DNA from: a virus
Length of the DNA: 64,000 nucleotides
Strand: one strand, 5' to 3'
Virus record (IMG/VR): IMGVR_UViG_3300013131_000042
Location: 1-64,000 of that record
Positions 6,022 to 25,845 of this stretch are shown in pieces. Both the position numbers and the translations under genes were made by a program. The notes below the pieces were generated by a model. It saw nothing but the letters and a program-made list of their open reading frames with translations. It had not been told where the DNA came from and searched no databases. The stretch's first letter is position 1. Each line of letters begins with the position of its first letter.

Positions 6022-6729
6022 ATGCCAGTTGTATTCTTTTCTGGCGGGATTGATAGCTCGGTATTGGCTTACGACATCGCCAAGCGCCCCTTCGCCTACG
6101 GCGTCGATTTCGAGTACGAGGACTTGGTGCTCGTGACGTACGGCAAGGACGGCCGCAAGCGAGCGAACAAGTTTACCGACGAGCTAATCAAAGATGTCCG
6201 CGTGACGGTTGACGTTCGCTGGTTCGAATCACCGCTGGAGTCGTATGACCCGGAGATGGTTCCTGTGGCAGGGCACGGTACGATGGTGCCCTCTGTTGGG
6301 CCGTACACGTGGGACCGCCGCTCGATGCCGTACACGCCTGGACTCATGACGTGGCTCGCGTCGTTGGCGTTTAACCTCGTCTATAGCTGGGAACTGCCCA
6401 ACGGAAAGCCGCAGGTCTTCTTCGGGTTCCAGTACGAGCCGCAGGCGTGGGCGGCGTATGACCGTCGCAAGCTGGCGGCAAACGATACGAGCCCCGCGTA
6501 CATCGAAGCCCTGAACAAGCTCAGCAAGGTAGCTGGAGAGCCTGCCCATTTTCGTGCGCCCTTCCTGGATAACCGCATGAGCCGCTACCAGATCGTGGAG
6601 CTGGGTAAGTTGCTCAAGGTGCCCCTGAAAGACACGCACTCGTGCATCATGCTGCGTGACGCGCACTGCGGCAGATGCTGTCAGTGCATCAAACGAGACT
6701 TGGCGTTCGGCATTCTGGGGGTCGTATGA
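6022..6729 (+). CDS. QueC-like PP-loop ATPase (divergent paralog)
   Basis: A 235-residue protein. The N-terminal SGGIDS PP-loop (residues 7-12) marks the ATP pyrophosphatase family. Near the C-terminus Cys208, 216, 219 and 222 have the same 8-3-3 spacing as the zinc site of the next gene's QueC, with one extra Cys220. True QueC converts 7-carboxy-7-deazaguanine to preQ0. This copy is far more diverged: it has 'PGLMTWLASLAFNLVYSWE' in place of the usual PGRN-type segment. It may act on another deazaguanine or carboxylate. ATG 6022 has AGAGGA upstream, and its stop overlaps the next start (ATGA). Family is fairly sure, substrate unknown. Confidence 0.75.
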   Translation: MPVVFFSGGIDSSVLAYDIAKRPFAYGVDFEYEDLVLVTYGKDGRKRANKFTDELIKDVRVTVDVRWFESPLESYDPEMVPVAGHGTMVPSVGPYTWDRRSMPYTPGLMTWLASLAFNLVYSWELPNGKPQVFFGFQYEPQAWAAYDRRKLAANDTSPAYIEALNKLSKVAGEPAHFRAPFLDNRMSRYQIVELGKLLKVPLKDTHSCIMLRDAHCGRCCQCIKRDLAFGILGVV

Positions 6730-7433
6730 GCAAAGAAAGCGCAGTAGTTTTGTTATCTGGTGGGCAGGATTCAACGACCTGCCTCTTCTGGGCAAAGGAG
6801 CGCTTCGGGCGCGTCCACCCGTTGACCATCTATTACGGTCAGCGGCACGAGGCAGAGATCCAAGCGGCGCGCGTTATCGTCAAGCTCGCGGACATCCAAG
6901 ATCATCTTGTGGTGCAGGATAGTATTCTCACTAACTTGGTATCTAGTGCGCTACTGCAGCGCACGGAACAGGCGTCCGTGAAAGAGACGCGTGCAGGCAC
7001 GGACTTGCCAGCGACCTTCGTACCCGGGCGCAACCTGTTCTTCGCCACGGCCGCAGCCGCGTACGCGTACGAGATTGGCGCGCATCACGTGGTCCTCGGC
7101 GTGTGTGAGACGGACTACTCCGGCTACCCAGACTGCCGCGAACACACGCTCAGGGCGCTGGAGCAGGCGCTCCGCTACGGCATCTGGGGCGAGGAGCCTC
7201 GCTCAGCGAGCCGTAAACACCAGCTGTGGCTGCATACGCCGCTCATGTACAAGACGAAGGCAGAGAGCGTGCAGATGGCGCGTGAGTTGCCGGGCTGCTG
7301 GGATGCATTGGCCCACACGGTGACGTGCTACCTGGGCCGTCGACCAGGGTGCGGTGAGTGCCCAGCGTGCGTTTTGCGTCGTCGTGGCTTTGAGGAGGCA
7401 GGAGAAAATGACCCAGCAAGCGAAATTCACTGA
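6726..7433 (+). CDS. queC: 7-cyano-7-deazaguanine (preQ0) synthase QueC
   Basis: A 235-residue enzyme making preQ0 from 7-carboxy-7-deazaguanine, ammonia and ATP. Visible hallmarks are SGGQDST (residues 11-17), YYGQRHEAEI, the substrate-site VPGRNLFF, CETDYSGYPDCR, and the zinc site Cys201/209/212/215 (C-YLGRRPG-C-GE-C-PA-C). ATG 6726 overlaps the previous stop; an upstream in-frame extension lies inside the first paralog and is rejected. It is followed by QueF, so the cassette points to preQ1. In phages such genes usually feed DNA deazaguanine modification against restriction; supply of tRNA queuosine is the alternative. Confidence 0.93.
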   Translation: MSKESAVVLLSGGQDSTTCLFWAKERFGRVHPLTIYYGQRHEAEIQAARVIVKLADIQDHLVVQDSILTNLVSSALLQRTEQASVKETRAGTDLPATFVPGRNLFFATAAAAYAYEIGAHHVVLGVCETDYSGYPDCREHTLRALEQALRYGIWGEEPRSASRKHQLWLHTPLMYKTKAESVQMARELPGCWDALAHTVTCYLGRRPGCGECPACVLRRRGFEEAGENDPASEIH

Positions 7434-11908: not shown

Positions 11909-14041
11909 ATGCCCCTCTCGTTTTTCACCAACTCCGGTAACAGCTACGGCAGCGCTCTGCCGTTTCAGCGCATCGTAGAGCCCGCGCAGCTTGGGTTCTT
12001 CCTGGACCTGGAGCAGGCAGAGCTGCTGCGTATCCAGCGGTATAACGAGGGGTGGCGCTTCTACTTCGGCAAGCACTGGATGTTCAAGCGAGAGGACGGT
12101 GAGCCTCTCGTCACCATCAACCTCTTCCGCAAGATCATTGACAAGAGCGTCGCGTTCCTTGTGGCCAAGGGCTTCAACATCTCGACCCCGGAAACTCTGG
12201 AAGAGGTTACGAAGCCTTTTATTGACGAGGTGTGGACGTATAACAAGCGCGACCAGTTTGCTTGGGACGCCGCCACGATGGGCGCGTGCACGGGCGACGT
12301 TTTCGTACTCATCACGTACGAAGACCCGACGCCGATGCAGCAGCGCATCAACCCGTTCTCGCAGGGCCGTATCCGCGTCAACCTGCTTGGCTCGGAACAG
12401 GTCTACCCCACGTGGGACCCGCTGAACACGGATACGCTCGTCGCGGTGCGCATCGAGACGGTCTACTACGCCGAGCGCGGGACGCGTGAGCTAGACCGGG
12501 ATGACCGCGTGAATCACGAGGGTCGTCAGCTCTACACGAGGCGTTTTACGCAGATCATCACGCCGACGCAGATCGTGGAGCAGTTCCACGGAGAACAGCC
12601 TCGCGTGCGCCCGAACGTCCTGGGCGAGATTCCCATGGTGCACATCAAGAATCTGTCGCTGCCGAAGGAGTACTACGGCCTCAGCGACGGCTTCGACCTG
12701 ATTGATCTGCAGCGGGAACTCAATGAGAAGGCTACCGATATTTCCGATACTATTAACTATCACTCTGCACCTGTCACGGTTATTACTGGAGCTAAAGCCT
12801 CGCAGCTGAGCCGTGAAGCGCGTCAGATTTGGTCGGGCCTGCCGAAGGATGCCAACGTCTTCAACCTGAAGCTCGAAGGCGATCTCACAGCCGCGCACAA
12901 CTATCTCAAGTTCATCAAGACATCGCTGCACGAGCTGTCTGACGTGCCCGAGAACGCGCTTGGCGCTTCTCAGCCCATCTCGAATACCAGCGGTGTGGCG
13001 CTGCATCTTCAGTATCAGCCGCTCATCGAGAAGACGCGTCGTAAGAAGGTGCAGTACGCGCCTGGTTTCGAGCAGATTAATTACTTCATCCTGCGCATCG
13101 GCATGGCGAAGGGCCTGATTAATCTGCCGTTTGACCTGTGCCGTCACTGCGGCGGTCGCATCATCGAGATTGAGACGAAGGACACGGCCAAGGTCTGGAA
13201 TCCCGAGGCGCAGACTTACGTCGACCAGCCTATTCGGAAGAAGCGCTGTTACCACATCGAGAAGGGCACTTTCGAGTTCTCAAAGCCGGAAGAGATGCGC
13301 CTCAAGTTCTGGCGCAAGTACGGCTTCGGGCAGGAGCTTCGAGAACTGCCGTATGCACAAATTGAGAAGGAGATGCGCGGCGGTTTTGAGTCGTTTTGGG
13401 ACTACGCGGCGCAGCAAGAGAAGAAACTGCAGGCGTGGGTTGAGGCGAACAAGGCCCAACTGACGCCCCAGCCTGCCCCTGCGGGTGAGGGAGAGCCCGC
13501 CCCGCAGGCTGCACCGATGCAGATTCCGCCCGAGCTTGCGAAGCTGCTGGGGCCGCAGCCACCCAAGGGTCTGACCCCCGGCGTGATTCCGACGCACGAG
13601 ATTGACGTGCCGGAGGAGCCGGAGAAGGTTACTGTTACTATCCCGTACGTTAATCCTGATACGCAGGAGTACATGTTCTCGGAGACGAAGGAGCTGTTCC
13701 TCGTCCCCACGGGATGCCATCGTCCAGCCTACCTGAACCCCTTTGAGTCCACCGTGGACTTCCAAGAGACGCTGCCGAAGGATGAGGCCATTCAGTCGCA
13801 GCTCTACGCGCAGTATCAGGCGTCTGGCTGGGTCGACGCAGACTGGGTCCGTGAGCGCATCCCTGAGATTGCCGCGGATGCCAGCGAGATTCGTCGCCGC
13901 ATGAAGAATCAACCCGTGGCGCCTGCAAAGGGTGCGAACATGTACCAGGAGCTGGCGCCACCGCAGACGCCGACTGCCTCGGTACCTGATGCGGCGGGAA
14001 ACCCTGTCTCTGTAACCAATCAACTCGATAATCAGAAGTGA
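11909..14041 (+). CDS. Portal protein
   Basis: A 710-residue protein forming the dodecameric ring through which DNA enters and leaves the capsid. The N-terminal and central parts show the SPP1/phi29-like portal pattern: RIQRYNEGWRFYFGKHW, NLFRKIIDKSVAFLVAKG, FAWDAATMGACTGDVFVLI, VYPTWDP, NTSGVALHLQYQPLIEKTRRKK and a long stem helix. A Cys-containing segment (CRHCGG) and a Pro/Ala-rich stretch (~505-545) are inserted before the C-terminal domain. It lies downstream of the terminase, as usual. Confidence 0.9.
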   Translation: MPLSFFTNSGNSYGSALPFQRIVEPAQLGFFLDLEQAELLRIQRYNEGWRFYFGKHWMFKREDGEPLVTINLFRKIIDKSVAFLVAKGFNISTPETLEEVTKPFIDEVWTYNKRDQFAWDAATMGACTGDVFVLITYEDPTPMQQRINPFSQGRIRVNLLGSEQVYPTWDPLNTDTLVAVRIETVYYAERGTRELDRDDRVNHEGRQLYTRRFTQIITPTQIVEQFHGEQPRVRPNVLGEIPMVHIKNLSLPKEYYGLSDGFDLIDLQRELNEKATDISDTINYHSAPVTVITGAKASQLSREARQIWSGLPKDANVFNLKLEGDLTAAHNYLKFIKTSLHELSDVPENALGASQPISNTSGVALHLQYQPLIEKTRRKKVQYAPGFEQINYFILRIGMAKGLINLPFDLCRHCGGRIIEIETKDTAKVWNPEAQTYVDQPIRKKRCYHIEKGTFEFSKPEEMRLKFWRKYGFGQELRELPYAQIEKEMRGGFESFWDYAAQQEKKLQAWVEANKAQLTPQPAPAGEGEPAPQAAPMQIPPELAKLLGPQPPKGLTPGVIPTHEIDVPEEPEKVTVTIPYVNPDTQEYMFSETKELFLVPTGCHRPAYLNPFESTVDFQETLPKDEAIQSQLYAQYQASGWVDADWVRERIPEIAADASEIRRRMKNQPVAPAKGANMYQELAPPQTPTASVPDAAGNPVSVTNQLDNQK

Positions 14042-14796: not shown

Positions 14797-15510
14797 ATGA
14801 TTCTGAGCAAATTTGCGTTGCAAGCCGTTCTCGTTGCCGCTGAGGTTTTTTCCAGCCCCACGCGTGACTTCGAAAAGCTGAGCGGAATTGCAGCTAGCGT
14901 TGCGGCCAGTGTCGAGGAGAGCCGCGTGTTGCCGTTCGAGGGTGAGGCCGCGCAAGAGGCGACGGTGCTCGCCCTCGTAGCTATTTCGGCGCACGAGAGC
15001 CATTTCCGGGACGACATCCGCCAGTGCAAGGTCCGCGGAGACCATGGGGCCAGCGTGTCCATGTACCAACTACACAATGGTGTTATTTGGCGCGGCAACA
15101 GCCTCAAGGATATCTGTAATAATGAGGTTCTTGCGGGTAAATTGGCGATTCAAGCCTTGGTAGATGCCAAGCAGCGGCTGAAGACCATTCGCAGCATGTT
15201 CCGTGGATATGCTACTGGAAATCCTGCGAAGCCTGCAGCTAGCGCCGATGCGCATCACGGGCTTTCTGGCATGTTCTTTACGCTTGCCAAACATCCAGAC
15301 TTCGACATCATTCCTAGTGATAGTAATCGTCGTCTGAGCGCCTCCTGGAGAACTAATGAGCAAGAAAAAGCCACCTTTGGGGTCAGGCGCTCGTTTCGCC
15401 AAGCTGGAGAAGTCTCTGGAGGCGAAGGGGGCGGAGAAGCCGCAGGCGCTTGCTGCTTGGATCGGCCAGAAAAAGTATGGTCCTTCCAAGATGGCAAAGA
15501 TGGCTGCTAA
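14797..15510 (+). CDS. Lytic transglycosylase-like protein
   Basis: A lysozyme-fold protein. Residues ~55-185 hold the SLT-type core: AISAHESHF with catalytic-type Glu67, then RGDHGASVSMYQLH and a TIRSMFRGYATG segment. Placed among head genes, it may be a virion-associated enzyme that opens the cell wall during DNA entry. The last ~50 residues (from ~188) overlap gene 15356 by 155 bases and look like out-of-frame translation of it. A TAATGA in a neighbouring frame sits exactly at the next start. The natural C-terminus was probably near residue 187 and was lost by a 1-base change or assembly error. Confidence 0.7.
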   Translation: MILSKFALQAVLVAAEVFSSPTRDFEKLSGIAASVAASVEESRVLPFEGEAAQEATVLALVAISAHESHFRDDIRQCKVRGDHGASVSMYQLHNGVIWRGNSLKDICNNEVLAGKLAIQALVDAKQRLKTIRSMFRGYATGNPAKPAASADAHHGLSGMFFTLAKHPDFDIIPSDSNRRLSASWRTNEQEKATFGVRRSFRQAGEVSGGEGGGEAAGACCLDRPEKVWSFQDGKDGC

Positions 15511-15646
15511 AGAGCGGTCTAAAAAGCACGGAATGCAGATGGGTCCGTCTGGCTATGGCACGACGCACGGCCTCGTTCACGTGTATGGCGCTGAGGCGTA
15601 TGACCCCAACGCTCATGAGTATCTGAGCCCCGCACAGGATTACTAA
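15356..15646 (+). CDS. Small basic phage protein
   Basis: A 96-residue protein with GGAG before ATG 15356. The N-terminal half (GSGARFAKLEKSLEAKGAEKPQALAAWIGQKKYG) is a widely seen phage small-protein motif, followed by a Lys-rich helix (KMAKMAAKERSKK) and an acidic tail with AHEYLSP. The tail motif 'DPNAHEY' resembles 'NSHEY' and 'SAHEY' motifs in neighbouring small proteins (15646 and 19982). Function unknown, probably structural or DNA-associated. Confidence 0.65.
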   Translation: MSKKKPPLGSGARFAKLEKSLEAKGAEKPQALAAWIGQKKYGPSKMAKMAAKERSKKHGMQMGPSGYGTTHGLVHVYGAEAYDPNAHEYLSPAQDY

Positions 15647-16101
15647 TGTCGTTGACCAAGTGGTTCGACGAGAAGTGGGTTGATATCTCCCGTCCTAAAA
15701 AGGACGGGGGGTATGAATCCTGCGGCCGTAAAGACGCTTCAGAGGGCAAGTACCCGAAGTGTCTCCCGGCTGCGAAGGCTGCACGCCTCTCGGAGACGGA
15801 GCGCAGCTCGGCCGTTCGTCGCAAGCGTAGTGCGGAGAGCAAGATGGCTGGCAAGAAGGATGGAAAGCCTGTATTCGTGGCCACGAAGGCGGAACACGGC
15901 GCTTCGGAGCCCACGAACAAGAAGCTCTACGCGCAGGTGAAGTCGGCAGCGAAGAAGAAGTTCGACGTGTACCCCTCTGCTTACGCTAATGGCTGGCTTG
16001 TGCAGGAGTACAAGAAGCGTGGCGGCGGTTATCGCAACACGCATGGCTACACGGCGGACGAAGAGTGCTGTAACGACAACAGCCACGAGTACCGCAAATG
16101 A
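15646..16101 (+). CDS. DUF5872-like protein
   Basis: A 151-residue protein. Residues ~5-70 contain WFDEKWVDISRPKKDGGYESCGRK and KYPKCLPAAKAARLS, and the C-terminal part has KLYAQVKSAAKKKFDVYPSAYANGW, matching the DUF5872-type pattern common in phages and large viruses. Two conserved cysteines lie in the N-terminal part. It overlaps the previous stop by one base. The biochemical role of this family is unknown to me; a nucleic-acid or virion role is possible. Confidence 0.75.
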   Translation: MSLTKWFDEKWVDISRPKKDGGYESCGRKDASEGKYPKCLPAAKAARLSETERSSAVRRKRSAESKMAGKKDGKPVFVATKAEHGASEPTNKKLYAQVKSAAKKKFDVYPSAYANGWLVQEYKKRGGGYRNTHGYTADEECCNDNSHEYRK

Positions 16102-16286
16102 AGCGCAAGCCCAAAGTTAGTGCGCCCGTGAATTTTGGCGAAAACAGCGTCGCGGGCTACGACCTTGGGCCTCTCATGCCCTCGAACCGTGCCGAGATTC
16201 CGATGAACTCGCACGATCAAATTGAGCGGCTGAATGCCAATGACATCACTGGATTCCGCTGGGACATCCGGTTTGACGGAGTTTAA
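16098..16286 (+). CDS. Hypothetical small protein
   Basis: A 62-residue protein beginning at an ATGA overlap. Basic start (MKRKPKVSAPVNFGENSV), then polar. Not recognised; likely part of the group of small virion-region proteins between portal and scaffold. Confidence 0.5.
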   Translation: MKRKPKVSAPVNFGENSVAGYDLGPLMPSNRAEIPMNSHDQIERLNANDITGFRWDIRFDGV

Positions 16287-16288
16287 CG

Positions 16289-16729
16289 GTGAAGAAAATG
16301 GGCCTATCTAAGCGTGACATGAATCGTTTCATGGAAGTCGTACCCGGACCGTCCCCTGTCCCGGGTCCGTCGCGTTCCGTTGGCGTGGGCGTGGGCGGTC
16401 TTCCGCTCTTCCACGAGGGCGGCGTTCGTGCGGGCGGTGACTGGGAGACCCTTCCCTCGGTCATGGTGCCGTTGCCGAAGCAGGGCTACGACGAGCATCG
16501 GTTCCACGGGATGGGGCCATCCAAGGCGTCGATGATGTCGCTTGAAGAGGGCGAGGAAGGTAGTGAAGATGCAGAAGACATGCCGCCGTCCTCAAAGCCA
16601 GCCCCGCCGACCACGGGTAAAATGGGCATGGGCCGGAACGCCAGCTGCGGTTTCCGTGGTTGTGGATTTGCCTCGAAAGACCATGGTCTTATGGCAAAGC
16701 ATCGTCTATCGTCCCATGGGCTCAAGTAA
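16289..16729 (+). CDS. C2H2 zinc-finger-containing protein
   Basis: A 146-residue protein. GTG 16289 is preferred because GGAG lies 7 bases upstream; ATG 16298 is the alternative. It has Pro/Gly-rich and acidic disordered regions (PGPSPVPGPSRS; EEGEEGSEDAED). Near the C-terminus Cys120-x4-Cys125-x12-His138-x4-His143 forms a complete classical C2H2 zinc-finger pattern with Phe and Leu at usual core positions. Such fingers are rare in phage proteins. A nucleic-acid or protein-binding role is inferred. It lies in the head gene block, before a small hairpin. Confidence 0.65.
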   Translation: MKKMGLSKRDMNRFMEVVPGPSPVPGPSRSVGVGVGGLPLFHEGGVRAGGDWETLPSVMVPLPKQGYDEHRFHGMGPSKASMMSLEEGEEGSEDAEDMPPSSKPAPPTTGKMGMGRNASCGFRGCGFASKDHGLMAKHRLSSHGLK

Positions 16730-16735
16730 TCTTTC

Positions 16736-16756
16736 GTACTGATTTAGTATCGGTAC
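16736..16756 (+). promoter_or_regulatory. Inverted repeat before the pre-scaffold gene
   Basis: GTACTGAT (16736-16743) pairs with ATCGGTAC (16749-16756), allowing one G-T pair, with a 5-base loop. It starts with the TACTGATTT sequence also found before the capsid gene. There is no T tract, so a promoter, operator or RNA-processing hairpin is more likely than a terminator. Confidence 0.4.
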
Positions 16757-16783
16757 TATCTCACTGCAACAGGAGACACGAAC

Positions 16784-17110
16784 ATGGCTGTTAATTTTGG
16801 CAAGACGACCAACATGGTCGAGGGCTCGCTCGGCTCTGGTGACTACCAGATGTACGGCGTCGGTAACAACCCGATGGCTTTCCGTGAGGCCACCCGCAAG
16901 GGCAAGTTCCCGAGCGACAACACCGGTCCGGACCGCTCGCAGGGTGAGAACTCTGGCGCCGGTTCGCTCTACTCGGCGATGCTCAATGAGCGCCCGAACA
17001 TCTCGAACCCGCGTAACCGCGGCCCGGAGCGCGCCCCGTCGCGCGATGGTGCGACCTCGATTCCGATCGTCGCGATGACTGCCCGTGGTACGGGCCGCGT
17101 CGGCGGCTGA
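16784..17110 (+). CDS. Hypothetical structural protein upstream of scaffold
   Basis: A 108-residue protein with AGGAG before ATG 16784. It is polar and Gly/Arg/Asn-rich (NMVEGSLGSGDYQMYGVGNNPM; RNRGPERAPSRDG), mostly without hydrophobic core. Its codon use is strongly biased to the GC-rich set used by the capsid gene, suggesting high expression. It may be a head-associated or disordered virion protein. Not recognised. Confidence 0.55.
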   Translation: MAVNFGKTTNMVEGSLGSGDYQMYGVGNNPMAFREATRKGKFPSDNTGPDRSQGENSGAGSLYSAMLNERPNISNPRNRGPERAPSRDGATSIPIVAMTARGTGRVGG

Positions 17111-17150
17111 TTAACTAAAAGTTTCTCTAAAGGACGTAGGAGCGAAGAAC

Positions 17151-18254
17151 ATGCCTCAGCAAACTAACGAAGCCCCAAACGTTGAACAGGTCCCTGCAGC
17201 TAACGCGGCGTCTACCGACACGATTACTGAGGATACCGAGCGTCGGATTCAGAAGGCTCGGGAGGAAGAAAAGCGTCGTCTCTATGCTCAGATTGAGCAG
17301 GAGAAGGCGGAACGTCTTTCTCTTGAGAAGAAACTTGCGGAGCGTGAGAAGGCGGAGAAGGAGCAAAAGCTCGCTCAACTTCCCCCGGATCAGCAAGTTG
17401 TTGCCCGACTGTCCGAGCTTGAGCAGCGGTTGGCTGCTGAACGTGGTGAGGCGCTCCAGCGCGAAGCCACGCTTCAGAACCACCTTCGCGCGTTGGGTCT
17501 TGTGGCGTACCGCGAGCGGGCGCTTCAGGAAGTTCCCCGTGAAATCCATGACTTCGTCCATGGAAATAGCGAGGAAGAAATCGACGTTGCGGTTGATCGA
17601 GCCAAGTCGCTTTACGGGTCGTTGGAACAACGTCTGCGAGCTAAGCTGGCCCCCGTCCAGCCCGCTCCGCAAGCAATGGCGGTGCCGATGGCGCCTCCAC
17701 CAATGAATCCGGCGTTTGTCGCGCAGCCTCAGTATCCCGTGGCGGGTTTCCCTACGGCCACTAACCCCCTCCCGGTCGCGGAGGGGTTGGCAGAGACTGA
17801 CCTCACTGCCATGACTTCGGAACAGGCAGTCCGCAATGGCAAGTACGGTGGCGAAATGCGTGATCGTATCCTTGCTCAACTTCGCGGACAGGCCGGTGCG
17901 TATCAGCCGACTAACCCCGGTGCTACGCCCCGTCACCTGAGCGGCGTGTCCTATCAGCAGATGCCGAACGGTGTCATGCAACCGATGGGTACGCCGATGC
18001 AGGCTCCGATGCCTACGCAGATGGTCCAGTCTCCCAGCCCTGTGGGTATGCCCGCCCCCATGCCAGTCATGGATGCAGGTGACCCCCGGGCTGCGGCTTT
18101 GGCAGCGATTCAACGCACGCACGCAGGACAGAACCCAGTCATGGGAGCACAGCAAGGTGCAGGTAACGCTCTGGCGGCTGCGCAAGCCTATGCCCAACAG
18201 CATGGAATTGCGAACCCGGCAGAAGCCTTCGCCGCGCGGTTCTCTCAGGGCTGA
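17151..18254 (+). CDS. Putative capsid scaffold protein
   Basis: A 367-residue protein directly upstream of the capsid gene. Residues ~25-115 are a long coiled coil (ERRIQKAREEEKRRLYAQIEQEKAERLSLEKKL). The C-terminal ~200 residues are Pro/Met/Gln/Ala-rich and disordered. This shape and position are typical of internal scaffolding proteins that shape the prohead. Segments such as DLTAMTSEQAVRNGKYGGEMRDRI and the end IANPAEAFAARFSQG may contact the capsid protein. No protease motif is visible within it. Confidence 0.75.
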   Translation: MPQQTNEAPNVEQVPAANAASTDTITEDTERRIQKAREEEKRRLYAQIEQEKAERLSLEKKLAEREKAEKEQKLAQLPPDQQVVARLSELEQRLAAERGEALQREATLQNHLRALGLVAYRERALQEVPREIHDFVHGNSEEEIDVAVDRAKSLYGSLEQRLRAKLAPVQPAPQAMAVPMAPPPMNPAFVAQPQYPVAGFPTATNPLPVAEGLAETDLTAMTSEQAVRNGKYGGEMRDRILAQLRGQAGAYQPTNPGATPRHLSGVSYQQMPNGVMQPMGTPMQAPMPTQMVQSPSPVGMPAPMPVMDAGDPRAAALAAIQRTHAGQNPVMGAQQGAGNALAAAQAYAQQHGIANPAEAFAARFSQG

Positions 18255-18264
18255 TCTGACCTCC

Positions 18265-18285
18265 GTGTACTGATTTCAGTAACAC
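18265..18285 (+). promoter_or_regulatory. Inverted repeat before the capsid gene
   Basis: TACTG-ATTT-CAGTA at 18268-18281, extended by GTG/CAC with one bulged A. The arms equal those of the palindrome at 2429-2442. It lies 15 bases before the capsid ATG and overlaps the leader; it could be a late promoter element or an mRNA-stabilising stem. Confidence 0.45.
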
Positions 18286-18300
18286 TAGGGAGATTCTAAA

Positions 18301-19284
18301 ATGCCGTCCGTTCTCAATACCGCCAGCACGACTGGCGCCGGTTTTAGCCAGCAGGTCAACGCGATCCGCGACGTTTACAGCGCGGAAATTTGGTTCGCCG
18401 CTCTTCCGATCCTCAAGTTCGACCAGTTTTCGACGAAGAAGACCGAGCTTGGTGTTCAGCCGGGCCGCACCATCCAACTTCCGAAGTACGGTTCCATCAA
18501 GCGTGGTGGCCGTCTCCAGGAAGGCGTCCGTCTCCAGACCCGCGGCATGAGCATGTCTCAGGCGTCGCTCACGGTCTACGAGCAGGGCAACGCGATCGGG
18601 TTCTCGGAGTACCTCCTCCAGACCTCGTTCTTCGACCAGCTCTCGGCTGCGTCGCTTCTCCTCGGTCGTGACATGGCGGTCGTTCTCGACCTCCAGCTCC
18701 GCGACACCGTCGTCTCGGGCACGAACGTCGTGTTCGCGAACGGCCGTGCGAGCCGCACCGCCCTCATCGCGGGCGACTCCTTTGACACCCAGGTGCTCAA
18801 GGACGCGGTCGAGACCCTTGAGACCAACAACACCCCGAAGTGGGCGGGCGACCACTATGTGTGTTTCCTCCACCCGCACCAGGGCCGTGGCCTCCGTGAC
18901 GACAACGACTGGATCAACGCTTCGCTCTACGCGGGCGCGACCCAGATTTACACGGGCGAGATTGGCCGTTACGAGGACGTTCGTTTCATCTCCACCACGG
19001 TGATGCCGAACGGCCGTAACTCGGCTGTCGACCCCAACACGGGCGACTACGTCGACATCGGCTTCAACCCGGCCCTCGCGGCTGGCTTCGCCGGTAACCA
19101 GACCACCATCTATCAGGCTGTCCTCTTCGGTGAGTACAGCTACGGTCACGCGACCGCCCTCCCGGTCGAACTCCGCGACAACGGCGTCGAGGACTTCGGT
19201 CGTGAGCACGGTCTCGCGTGGTACGCCATCTGGGGCCAGGGCGTCCTCGAAAACCCGAACATCGTCGTCATCGAGACGGCCTGA
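18301..19284 (+). CDS. Major capsid protein (N4-gp56 family)
   Basis: A 327-residue HK97-fold shell protein. N4-gp56-type features are an AEIWFAALPILKFDQFS start region, GRTIQLPKYGSIK, the long helix GRDMAVVLDLQLRDT, and DHYVCFLHPHQGRGLRDDNDWINASLYAG followed by EIGRYEDVRFISTTVMP. Codon use is extremely biased to a small preferred set, as expected of the most abundant virion protein. It follows the scaffold gene and a short inverted repeat. Confidence 0.93.
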   Translation: MPSVLNTASTTGAGFSQQVNAIRDVYSAEIWFAALPILKFDQFSTKKTELGVQPGRTIQLPKYGSIKRGGRLQEGVRLQTRGMSMSQASLTVYEQGNAIGFSEYLLQTSFFDQLSAASLLLGRDMAVVLDLQLRDTVVSGTNVVFANGRASRTALIAGDSFDTQVLKDAVETLETNNTPKWAGDHYVCFLHPHQGRGLRDDNDWINASLYAGATQIYTGEIGRYEDVRFISTTVMPNGRNSAVDPNTGDYVDIGFNPALAAGFAGNQTTIYQAVLFGEYSYGHATALPVELRDNGVEDFGREHGLAWYAIWGQGVLENPNIVVIETA

Positions 19285-23421: not shown

Positions 23422-25845
23422 ATGGCGTCGTTTCTCAGCCCCGGAATCAAGGTCACCGAGATCGCAAAGGGTCCGGTAGCTTTTTCGAATATCCCGACCG
23501 CTATCGGTGGTTTCCTTGCCGAGGCCCAGAAGGGTCCTGCCAACACGGCGAAGCTCGTCACGAGCCTCACGGAGGCGCAGGAGATTTTCGGTTCTCGTTA
23601 CACCACGGGCGTTCTTGAGGATGCCCTTACCGCGTTCTTTAACAACGGCGGTGCTTCTTGCTATGTCGTGCGTGCGATTTCCAGCACGGCGGCGACGGCT
23701 TCGCGCCAGCTGACCACGCCGGGCGCGGCCACGGCGGGTACGCTTTCGTCGAGCGCGGGGTCCTTCCCGGTCATCCTCGCGAACGGCGACACGTTCATCG
23801 GCGAGGTTGATAACGTCGCTGCTGGTACGGTCACCATCGTGGCGCAGCCTGCCCAGGCGACGGGCGCTGCTGCGACCTATGCCGCGGGTGGTGCGGGCGA
23901 CTCCATCGGTATCACCGTGGCGGGCGTCCTCGGCGGCGCGCTCCAGACGGTCAACCTCAGCTCGGTGGGTGCCACGCAGGCTGACTACCTCGCGGCCCTC
24001 AACGCGGGCCTTCTCGGCGTCTCGGCGGTCAACTTCGGCGGCCAGATTCGTCTCGTGAGCGACCGTAAGGGTACGGCGGCGCAGATCAACATCGGCTCGC
24101 TTGGCGGCGCTGCTGGTGCGAAGACTGGCCTCTCCCTCGGCGTTAGCTCGGGCTCCGGTAACGTGGCCGATGTGGCGGCGGTGGCGGCGAGCGAGGTTGC
24201 CTCGCTCTTTAACACCACCTTTACCGGCTCGACGACCGTTGCGAACGCGAACAACTCGGTGACCTGGACCTCCGGCACGACCGGCCCGACCTCTGAGGTT
24301 CAGTTCACGGGCGGTACGGGCGTTGCGAAGATCACGGGCTTCGACAACGCGGCCCACCCTGGTTCGACGACCGCCCCCACCAACACCGTCCTTGCCACGG
24401 CGTCCTCGCCCGGCGCTTGGGGTAACACGGACTGCCAAGTGCAGGCGACGCGTGTGGACACCACGGTGACGCAGGTTGGCGCGGTGACCCCCGCCGGTTC
24501 GGCCTCGCAGCTGACCCTCGTGTCGGTCGCGCGCCTCGCTGTGGGCGACACCGTCTCGATTACCAAGAGCGGTAACACGCAGCGCGCCGTCATCAGCCAG
24601 ATTGTGCCGTCGCTTAATCGCGTCGTTTTCGTCTCTCCCATCACCATTCCGGTGGGTGGCTACACGACGACCGACAACGTGGTGCTGGAGACCTTCACCC
24701 TCGCGGTTTACACGCTCTCGCAGGCGCTGGTGGCCTCGTTCACGAATCTTCGCATGTCCGCGCTCGCGGGCGCGAACTACTTCGTGAACAAGATTAACAA
24801 CACGTTCAACACGCCTCTCACGGTCACGAACAACAACTCGGTGGCCTCTGACCCGCGCCCGTCCACGGACGTGGCTCCGGTGGCGATGACGGGCGGTTCG
24901 AACGGTGCGGCTCTCGTGTCGGCGGACTGGATCGGAAGCCAAGCGCTCTCGACTGGCATTTACGCTTTCGATCAGGCGCAGGATGTCAACTTCATCTCTA
25001 TCCCGGACATTACCTCGGTTGCGAATCAGTCGACCGTTGGTCCTATCTCGGTGACGGTGCCGAAGGCGCTGGAAACGTACGTTGCGAACCGTGCCGATCT
25101 CATGGCCATCCTCGATGCGCCGGAAGGCTCGTCTGCGTCGCAGGTAAAGACCTACGTCGAGACGACCGCCAACTTCGCGTCGGCTTACGAGGCCATCTAC
25201 TGGCCGTGGGTCAAGGCGCTCAACCCGACCACGGGCTATCTCGACTCCTACAGCCCGAGCGCGTACATCCAGGGCATTATCGCTCGTACGCACAGCGCTG
25301 TGAACATCGGTCAGGCTCCGGCAGGTACGACCTACGGCGTCCTCACGGGTGTGCTCGACACGGACACGCGCATCACGCTCGGTAGCGCGACGTACGACTC
25401 CATCTACCCGTCCGGCATTAACGCCATCATTCCGCTGCCCGGAAACGGTGTTTGCGCAATGGGCTCGCGTACGCTCGATCCGACCGGTGAGTTCGGACAA
25501 ATCTCGGTGCGTATCGTGTTCAACACGCTCAAGCGCCTCCTCAAGGACCAGCTCTTGTTCGTGCTGTTCCAGAACAACAACGATGACACCCGTTCGGCGG
25601 TCACCCGTATCGTCTCGTCGCTGCTCCGTCAGTGGCGTGAGGCGGGTATTCTCGCAGGCAACACGGATGCCGAATCGTTCTTCGTCATCTGCGACCGCAC
25701 CAACAACACGGCGCAGGTGATTGCCTCTGGCAAGCTCGTCGTCCGCGTCGGCATTGCGCCGCAGCGTCCCGCCGAGTTCCTCGACATCACCCTGGAACAA
25801 GACACCCGCGCGACTGAGGCTGCTGCGGCGGCTCAGACCCTCTGA
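23422..25845 (+). CDS. Contractile tail sheath protein
   Basis: An 807-residue protein of the outer contracting tube. The N-terminus (SPGIKVTEIAKGPVAFSNIPTAIGGFLAEAQKGP) and the C-terminus (GRTLDPTG-type segment, QISVRIVFNTLKRLLKDQLLFVLFQNN, SLLRQWREAGIL, KLVVRVGIAPQRPAEFLDITLEQD) are classic sheath regions. Residues ~85-430 form a long Ala/Gly/Thr-rich, beta-strand insertion, probably surface-exposed domains that make the protein larger than T4 gp18. Strong codon bias indicates high expression. Confidence 0.95.
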   Translation: MASFLSPGIKVTEIAKGPVAFSNIPTAIGGFLAEAQKGPANTAKLVTSLTEAQEIFGSRYTTGVLEDALTAFFNNGGASCYVVRAISSTAATASRQLTTPGAATAGTLSSSAGSFPVILANGDTFIGEVDNVAAGTVTIVAQPAQATGAAATYAAGGAGDSIGITVAGVLGGALQTVNLSSVGATQADYLAALNAGLLGVSAVNFGGQIRLVSDRKGTAAQINIGSLGGAAGAKTGLSLGVSSGSGNVADVAAVAASEVASLFNTTFTGSTTVANANNSVTWTSGTTGPTSEVQFTGGTGVAKITGFDNAAHPGSTTAPTNTVLATASSPGAWGNTDCQVQATRVDTTVTQVGAVTPAGSASQLTLVSVARLAVGDTVSITKSGNTQRAVISQIVPSLNRVVFVSPITIPVGGYTTTDNVVLETFTLAVYTLSQALVASFTNLRMSALAGANYFVNKINNTFNTPLTVTNNNSVASDPRPSTDVAPVAMTGGSNGAALVSADWIGSQALSTGIYAFDQAQDVNFISIPDITSVANQSTVGPISVTVPKALETYVANRADLMAILDAPEGSSASQVKTYVETTANFASAYEAIYWPWVKALNPTTGYLDSYSPSAYIQGIIARTHSAVNIGQAPAGTTYGVLTGVLDTDTRITLGSATYDSIYPSGINAIIPLPGNGVCAMGSRTLDPTGEFGQISVRIVFNTLKRLLKDQLLFVLFQNNNDDTRSAVTRIVSSLLRQWREAGILAGNTDAESFFVICDRTNNTAQVIASGKLVVRVGIAPQRPAEFLDITLEQDTRATEAAAAAQTL

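Follow-up and report, generated by a model that had tools for sequence, protein, structure and literature searches.

The gene at positions 16289–16729 of the window, the 64,000-nucleotide stretch analyzed here (bases 1–64000 of a 67,961-base virus record), encodes a protein with one C2H2 motif at its C-terminus, which confirms the observation that the first-pass annotation had made from the sequence, and the four ligand residues of this motif are kept in three homologues. With a probability of roughly 0.4, we tentatively read the product as an accessory protein of the head gene cluster, whose finger would be a basic knob that docks a disordered chain to nucleic acid non-specifically.

The C-terminal motif and its chance expectation

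The C-terminal end of the 146-residue product reads ...SCGFRGCGFASKDHGLMAKHRLSSHGLK (translation of 16289–16729, + strand), which spells C-x4-C-x12-H-x4-H with 3 residues left after the last His. The motif had been called complete and isolated, and it is both, there being one finger per protein; the window protein has 2 Cys in total, each of them a motif ligand. The protein had also been described as disordered and acidic. Disorder fits the AlphaFold2 model, in which the mean pLDDT per 10-residue block is 46–57 across residues 1–110. The acidic character applies to residues 85–105 (charge -7) but not to the protein overall, which has a net charge of +2; residues 106–146 amount to +6, and the finger region carries a charge of +5 or +6 in all four proteins, i.e. 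that of the window and those of the records L006, L051 and L010.

The exact motif occurs in 1 of the 518 stop-to-stop frames of at least 60 aa in the window. Shuffled frames contained a mean of 0.23 motifs per six-frame set, with at least one motif in 21% of 300 shuffles, and thus the motif by itself is unremarkable for a 64-kb window; upon shuffling of the finger protein only, it appeared in 25 of 200,000 sequences. The coding signal of the finger gene (codon-position GC of 0.65, 0.51 and 0.66) is weaker than that of the portal gene (0.61, 0.40 and 0.76), and therefore the homologues matter for the reality of the gene too. We hold the motif to be real because its ligands are conserved in these homologues, the motif not being sufficient by itself.

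Table 1. Coordinates of the finger gene, its neighbors and its homologues in related virus records
Feature	Position	Strand	Remarks
Portal protein	11909..14041	+	phrog_64, E 6e-35; upstream border of the variable spot
96-aa ORF with HGMQMGPSGYG motif	15356..15646	+	
ORF with DUF5872	15646-16101		PF19197, E 2e-14; several PHROGs of unknown function
62-aa ORF	16098..16286	+	Directly upstream of the finger gene
Finger-protein gene	16289..16729	+	146 aa; GTG start, ATG three codons further in
Second conserved stretch	16415..16498	+	EGGVRAGG...ETLP...K.GYDEH; common to window, L006, L051
Finger domain	16640..16726	+	29 codons, residues 118-146; from sequence
Ligand Cys codons	16646-16648 and 16661-16663	+	
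Ligand His codons	16700-16702 and 16715-16717	+	
orf16784	16784..17110	+	Conserved 108-aa neighbor; position marker in relatives
Putative scaffold gene	17151..18254	+	Position just before the capsid gene; Glu/Lys-rich N-terminal part
Major capsid protein	18301..19284	+	phrog_1357, E 1e-53
Tail sheath	23422-25845		PHROGs
L006 homologue	L006:5325-6224		299 aa; C-x4-C, x12, x4
L051 homologue	L051:4156-4971		271 aa; C-x3-C, x12, x4
L010 homologue	L010:3-251		Cut by contig start; C-x2-C, x12, x4

Homologues and the predicted fold

Related records were gathered by scanning viral contigs with the capsid protein, the product of the neighboring orf16784 and the portal protein. In three other virus records a finger protein is encoded directly upstream of the orf16784 homologue (Table 1). 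The contig represented by L002, L003, L050, L063 and L070 was left out of the homologue count, since it has almost the same sequence as the window, with 1 mismatch over 12,438 bases. Loss of the ligands in homologues had been named in the first-pass annotation as what would refute the finger, and the outcome of this check was favorable: C, C, H and H are kept in four of four proteins, all of which satisfy the pattern C-x(2-4)-C-x12-H-x(3-5)-H, and most other residues differ. In the four-row alignment the three homologues are 37, 33 and 24% identical to the window protein, and the 11 invariant columns include all four ligands; the Lys at C2+5 is likewise invariant in the four fingers. The proteins of the window and L006 have no Cys outside the finger. 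A second conserved stretch, with the consensus EGG(V/I)R.GG...ET(L/M)P...K.GYDEH, is common to the window, L006 and L051 proteins, establishing the latter two as homologues beyond the finger, and the putative homology of the truncated L010 protein is based on where its gene lies, on the finger and on the triplet EGG.

Further searches left the family at four members in the data searched. Scans of viral contigs with the capsid protein, the neighbor, the finger protein, the portal protein and the finger alone recovered no member besides L006, L010 and L051. In tblastn searches, the window protein had no match among 50,697 phage records and the L051 protein none outside, and a search with the L010 protein gave 3 matches at chance level (E 9). 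Protein alignment against genome contigs found no relative, and alignment of the capsid protein against genome contigs, in search of hosts, no match. Regular-expression matches in L007/L008/L009, L013, L019, L027, L030, L043 and L049 are located elsewhere, for the most part in frames of biased composition, and were discarded as fortuitous. The trees built for orf16784 and the capsid protein are largely unresolved, good support being limited to 0 of 9 and 3 of 16 inner branches, respectively, and do not decide whether the finger was gained once.

The Pfam model of the classical finger (PF00096), run over 19 related records, produced three matches, which are exactly the fingers of L010 (21.7 bits), L006 (13.4) and L051 (12.6), the scores in separate protein searches being 20.2, 14.8 and 14.4 bits, respectively, the last two on fragments; none of the 19 records reaches the curated cut-off of 25.2 bits, but this recovery is independent of the regular expression. 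No Pfam model matched the window finger itself. The canonical C2H2 finger places an aromatic core residue at C2+4, where all four fingers lack one, the aromatic being found instead at C2+2 (window, L006 and L010) or C2+3 (L051), and this displacement probably accounts for the lack of a Pfam match to the window finger. Helix position 4 is occupied by a hydrophobic residue in all four (M, L, L and F). A profile made from the four fingers (A8) matched, over 24 records, only the window (G000:16640-16726), L006, L051 and L010; since these four built the model and are contained in it by construction, the 20 records without a match, many of the 24 being fragments, are the informative part of this search. 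Against PDB sequences, the 29-position four-finger profile gave 9 matches at E<=1, all of them C2H2 fingers, with a best E of 0.03.

With the four-row alignment as input, AlphaFold2 predicted strands near residues 118–119 and 128–129 and a helix at 132–143 with pLDDT of about 88, i.e. the beta-beta-alpha order within residues 118–143, the remainder of the protein mostly being at pLDDT <60. The 48-aa stretch given as a single sequence yielded no structure (pLDDT 59). A Foldseek comparison of the predicted finger with the PDB returned, among the best 50 of 53 matches, zinc-finger entries by title except for 3ax1, Serrate, which carries a C2H2 finger as well; all 53 matches had E >1, and VIA-align gave similarly weak Z values of 2.0–2.9. 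PMC12383448 reports that AlphaFold 3 is confident on random sequences of zinc-finger size too, and calls its confidence at that size equivocal. We accordingly word the beta-beta-alpha fold of the finger as likely, as a modeled feature.

These data bear on the possibility that the motif arose by chance or is a vestige, with no zinc bound. The 0.23 motifs expected per shuffled window, the missing Pfam match of the window finger and the failure of the single-sequence model to fold would all be accommodated by it; nevertheless, the ligands are kept in all four proteins with spacer changes that stay inside the classical pattern, the window and L006 chains are devoid of other Cys, and L010 scores 20.2 bits to PF00096, and hence we consider this explanation very improbable.

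Relation to known C2H2 fingers

The first-pass label of a classical finger stands as far as spacing is concerned, and falls short in the absent Pfam match of the window finger and the displaced aromatic core residue. The likeness to the PF00096 class, of the TFIIIA/Zif268 kind, consists of the C-x(2-4)-C-x12-H-x4-H spacing, the hydrophobic helix position 4 and the predicted beta-beta-alpha order, whereas the phage finger is single, has its aromatic early and scores below the 25.2-bit cut-off. TFIIIA-type proteins bear tandem arrays, in contrast to the one finger of each phage protein. An early aromatic in the form C-x-F-x-S, like that of the phage finger, is seen in the even-numbered fingers of ZFY (PDB 1klr, 1xrz and 5znf), which were found by both the PDB sequence profile and the structure comparison; ZFY, however, is a human multi-finger protein and the phage finger stands alone.

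Among viral proteins, AFV1p06 of the archaeal virus AFV1 resembles the phage protein in having a single finger with disordered flanks, and differs in a Glu for the fourth ligand, a folded extension and an archaeal host; it binds zinc, as well as DNA with an affinity that depends on the sequence (PMC3541406). Membership in its family was rejected, since the window protein ends 3 residues past the last His and so has no folded extension after the finger. The case of AFV1p06 would favor a role as a sequence-specific transcription regulator of phage or host, a function suggested for C2H2 proteins of archaeal viruses. We regard such a role as unlikely for the phage protein, given that its gene sits inside a late head cluster, that the window protein has no predicted folded extension, and that the base-contact residues at helix positions -1, 2, 3 and 6 differ among the four homologues (DGLK, SHGQ, SHGR and STGR), which makes a conserved DNA target unlikely.

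The bacterial Ros-type regulators had been mentioned in the first-pass annotation as a comparison, which does not hold. As described in PMC9779718, Ros/MucR proteins are likewise small and have C2H2 ligands in a basic C-terminal region, but their spacer is 9 aa long and their globular domain is larger; with 12 residues between the second Cys and the first His in all four phage fingers, membership in the Ros group was rejected.

The first-pass statement that such fingers characterize eukaryotes and seldom occur in phages is borne out in part. According to PMC3541406 and PMC9779718, C2H2 fingers are almost confined to eukaryotes, the exceptions being archaeal viruses and Ros-type regulators; against rarity in phages, 'zinc-finger domain protein' families are already present in PHROGs (phrog_9929, phrog_9259 and phrog_35915), and a phage finger is therefore not new in itself. 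Homologues match these families weakly (L010 with E of 0.069 and 0.4, L051 with E of 0.012) and the window protein matches none of the three; by these scores, the finger proteins appear to be a distinct family. Literature searches of an open-licence library listed no paper whose title or displayed abstract deals with a C2H2 finger in a protein from the head cluster of a tailed phage. We regard the finger proteins as a small new family within a known type. They add a further well-delimited case, namely a lone conserved finger that has the 12-residue spacer of eukaryotic fingers and is encoded in a late gene cluster of a tailed phage, and a compact one for tests of zinc and DNA binding, and leave the understanding of such fingers unchanged.

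An accessory spot between portal and capsid genes

The finger gene starts 2 bases after the stop of the ORF upstream (16286 to 16289) on the same strand, and a sigma-70 scan of 15600–18400 found no promoter-like site; co-transcription with the neighbors is therefore likely. The C-terminus of the upstream 62-aa ORF (..RFDGV) matches that of the ORF upstream of the L051 finger gene (42% over 36 columns, E 9e-5). The putative scaffold was so designated by position and composition, with no match to a head family. As a separate observation, GTACTGATTT occurs at 16736–16745, just before orf16784, and at 18267–18276, just before the capsid gene; with at most one mismatch there are 5 such sites in the window against 1.68 expected, and 5 or more sites were counted in 2 of 100 shuffles.

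The annotated cultured relatives BRock and BS162P1, whose capsid proteins are 42–45% identical, have no comparable block of small genes before the capsid gene: the order in BRock is portal, one ORF and capsid gene, and BS162P1 has two small ORFs before the capsid gene, its portal being named by position only. The four-finger profile detected no finger in these two or in the faecal record MT835482.1. The uncultured relatives each have different small ORFs between the portal and capsid genes, and the finger is found in 4 of the 24 records searched, related records with 59–83% identical capsid proteins mostly being without it. The finger gene is thus accessory, located in a variable spot between the portal and the scaffold/capsid genes. 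The first-pass term 'head-region' accordingly suits the location of the gene, a role in the virion being conjectural, the accessory spot being missing from BRock and BS162P1.

A short motif, HGMQMGPSG(Y/F)G, belongs to a small ORF distinct from the finger gene in the window (15527–15570) and in L051 (about 3645), and is found as HGMQMGPSGFG inside the finger protein itself in L006 (about 5502), the last hinting that the products act at the same location. In L009:1358-3193, three successive ORFs have a common C-terminal stretch of about 55–65 residues (39–55% identical), possibly a common targeting tag, and the first of them resembles phrog_7595 as well as phrog_220 (E 1e-11), the family named 'minor head protein and DNA pilot'.

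The L009 ORFs, along with the different small ORFs that fill the portal–capsid spot in each relative, would fit a product carried inside the head as cargo and then injected, its finger acting on host DNA or RNA. The same comparison found no common tag in the spot ORFs of the window itself, and we consider injection unlikely. An even less probable extension is that the portal–scaffold spot is a cargo cassette operated through short swappable tags, in which a eukaryotic-style finger enters the host on the phage genome and then binds nucleic acid in the cell.

A closer competitor is that the finger is a protein-docking module holding the chain to capsid, scaffold or portal, with nucleic acid not involved. 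Lone fingers often bind proteins; the base-contact positions vary among the homologues, the L006 chain runs 89 residues past the finger, which is hence no simple tail, and the gene adjoins orf16784, the putative scaffold gene and the capsid gene. Weighing against a protein partner are the basic finger region of all four proteins and the limitation of the finger to so few records despite closely related capsid proteins, indicating that the capsid does not need it. This explanation, possible but somewhat doubtful taken singly, accounts for the data almost as well and is a close second to nucleic-acid binding.

We favor non-specific nucleic-acid binding because all four proteins have a basic finger region, the Lys at C2+5 is invariant and the contact residues are variable; docking or non-specific binding is in any case likelier than sequence-specific regulation. 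In the favored reading, the finger gene would be expressed together with the head genes, and its product would be a long disordered chain with a single small zinc-stabilized beta-beta-alpha C2H2 finger at its end. This basic finger would attach the chain to nucleic acid with little sequence preference, the partner presumably being phage DNA during or after packaging. Zinc binding, DNA as the partner and presence in the head are inferred here. Elsewhere in the window, two adjoining QueC-like ORFs at 6022–7433 (PF06508, E 2e-14 and 2e-66) point to 7-deazaguanine chemistry, perhaps for DNA modification.
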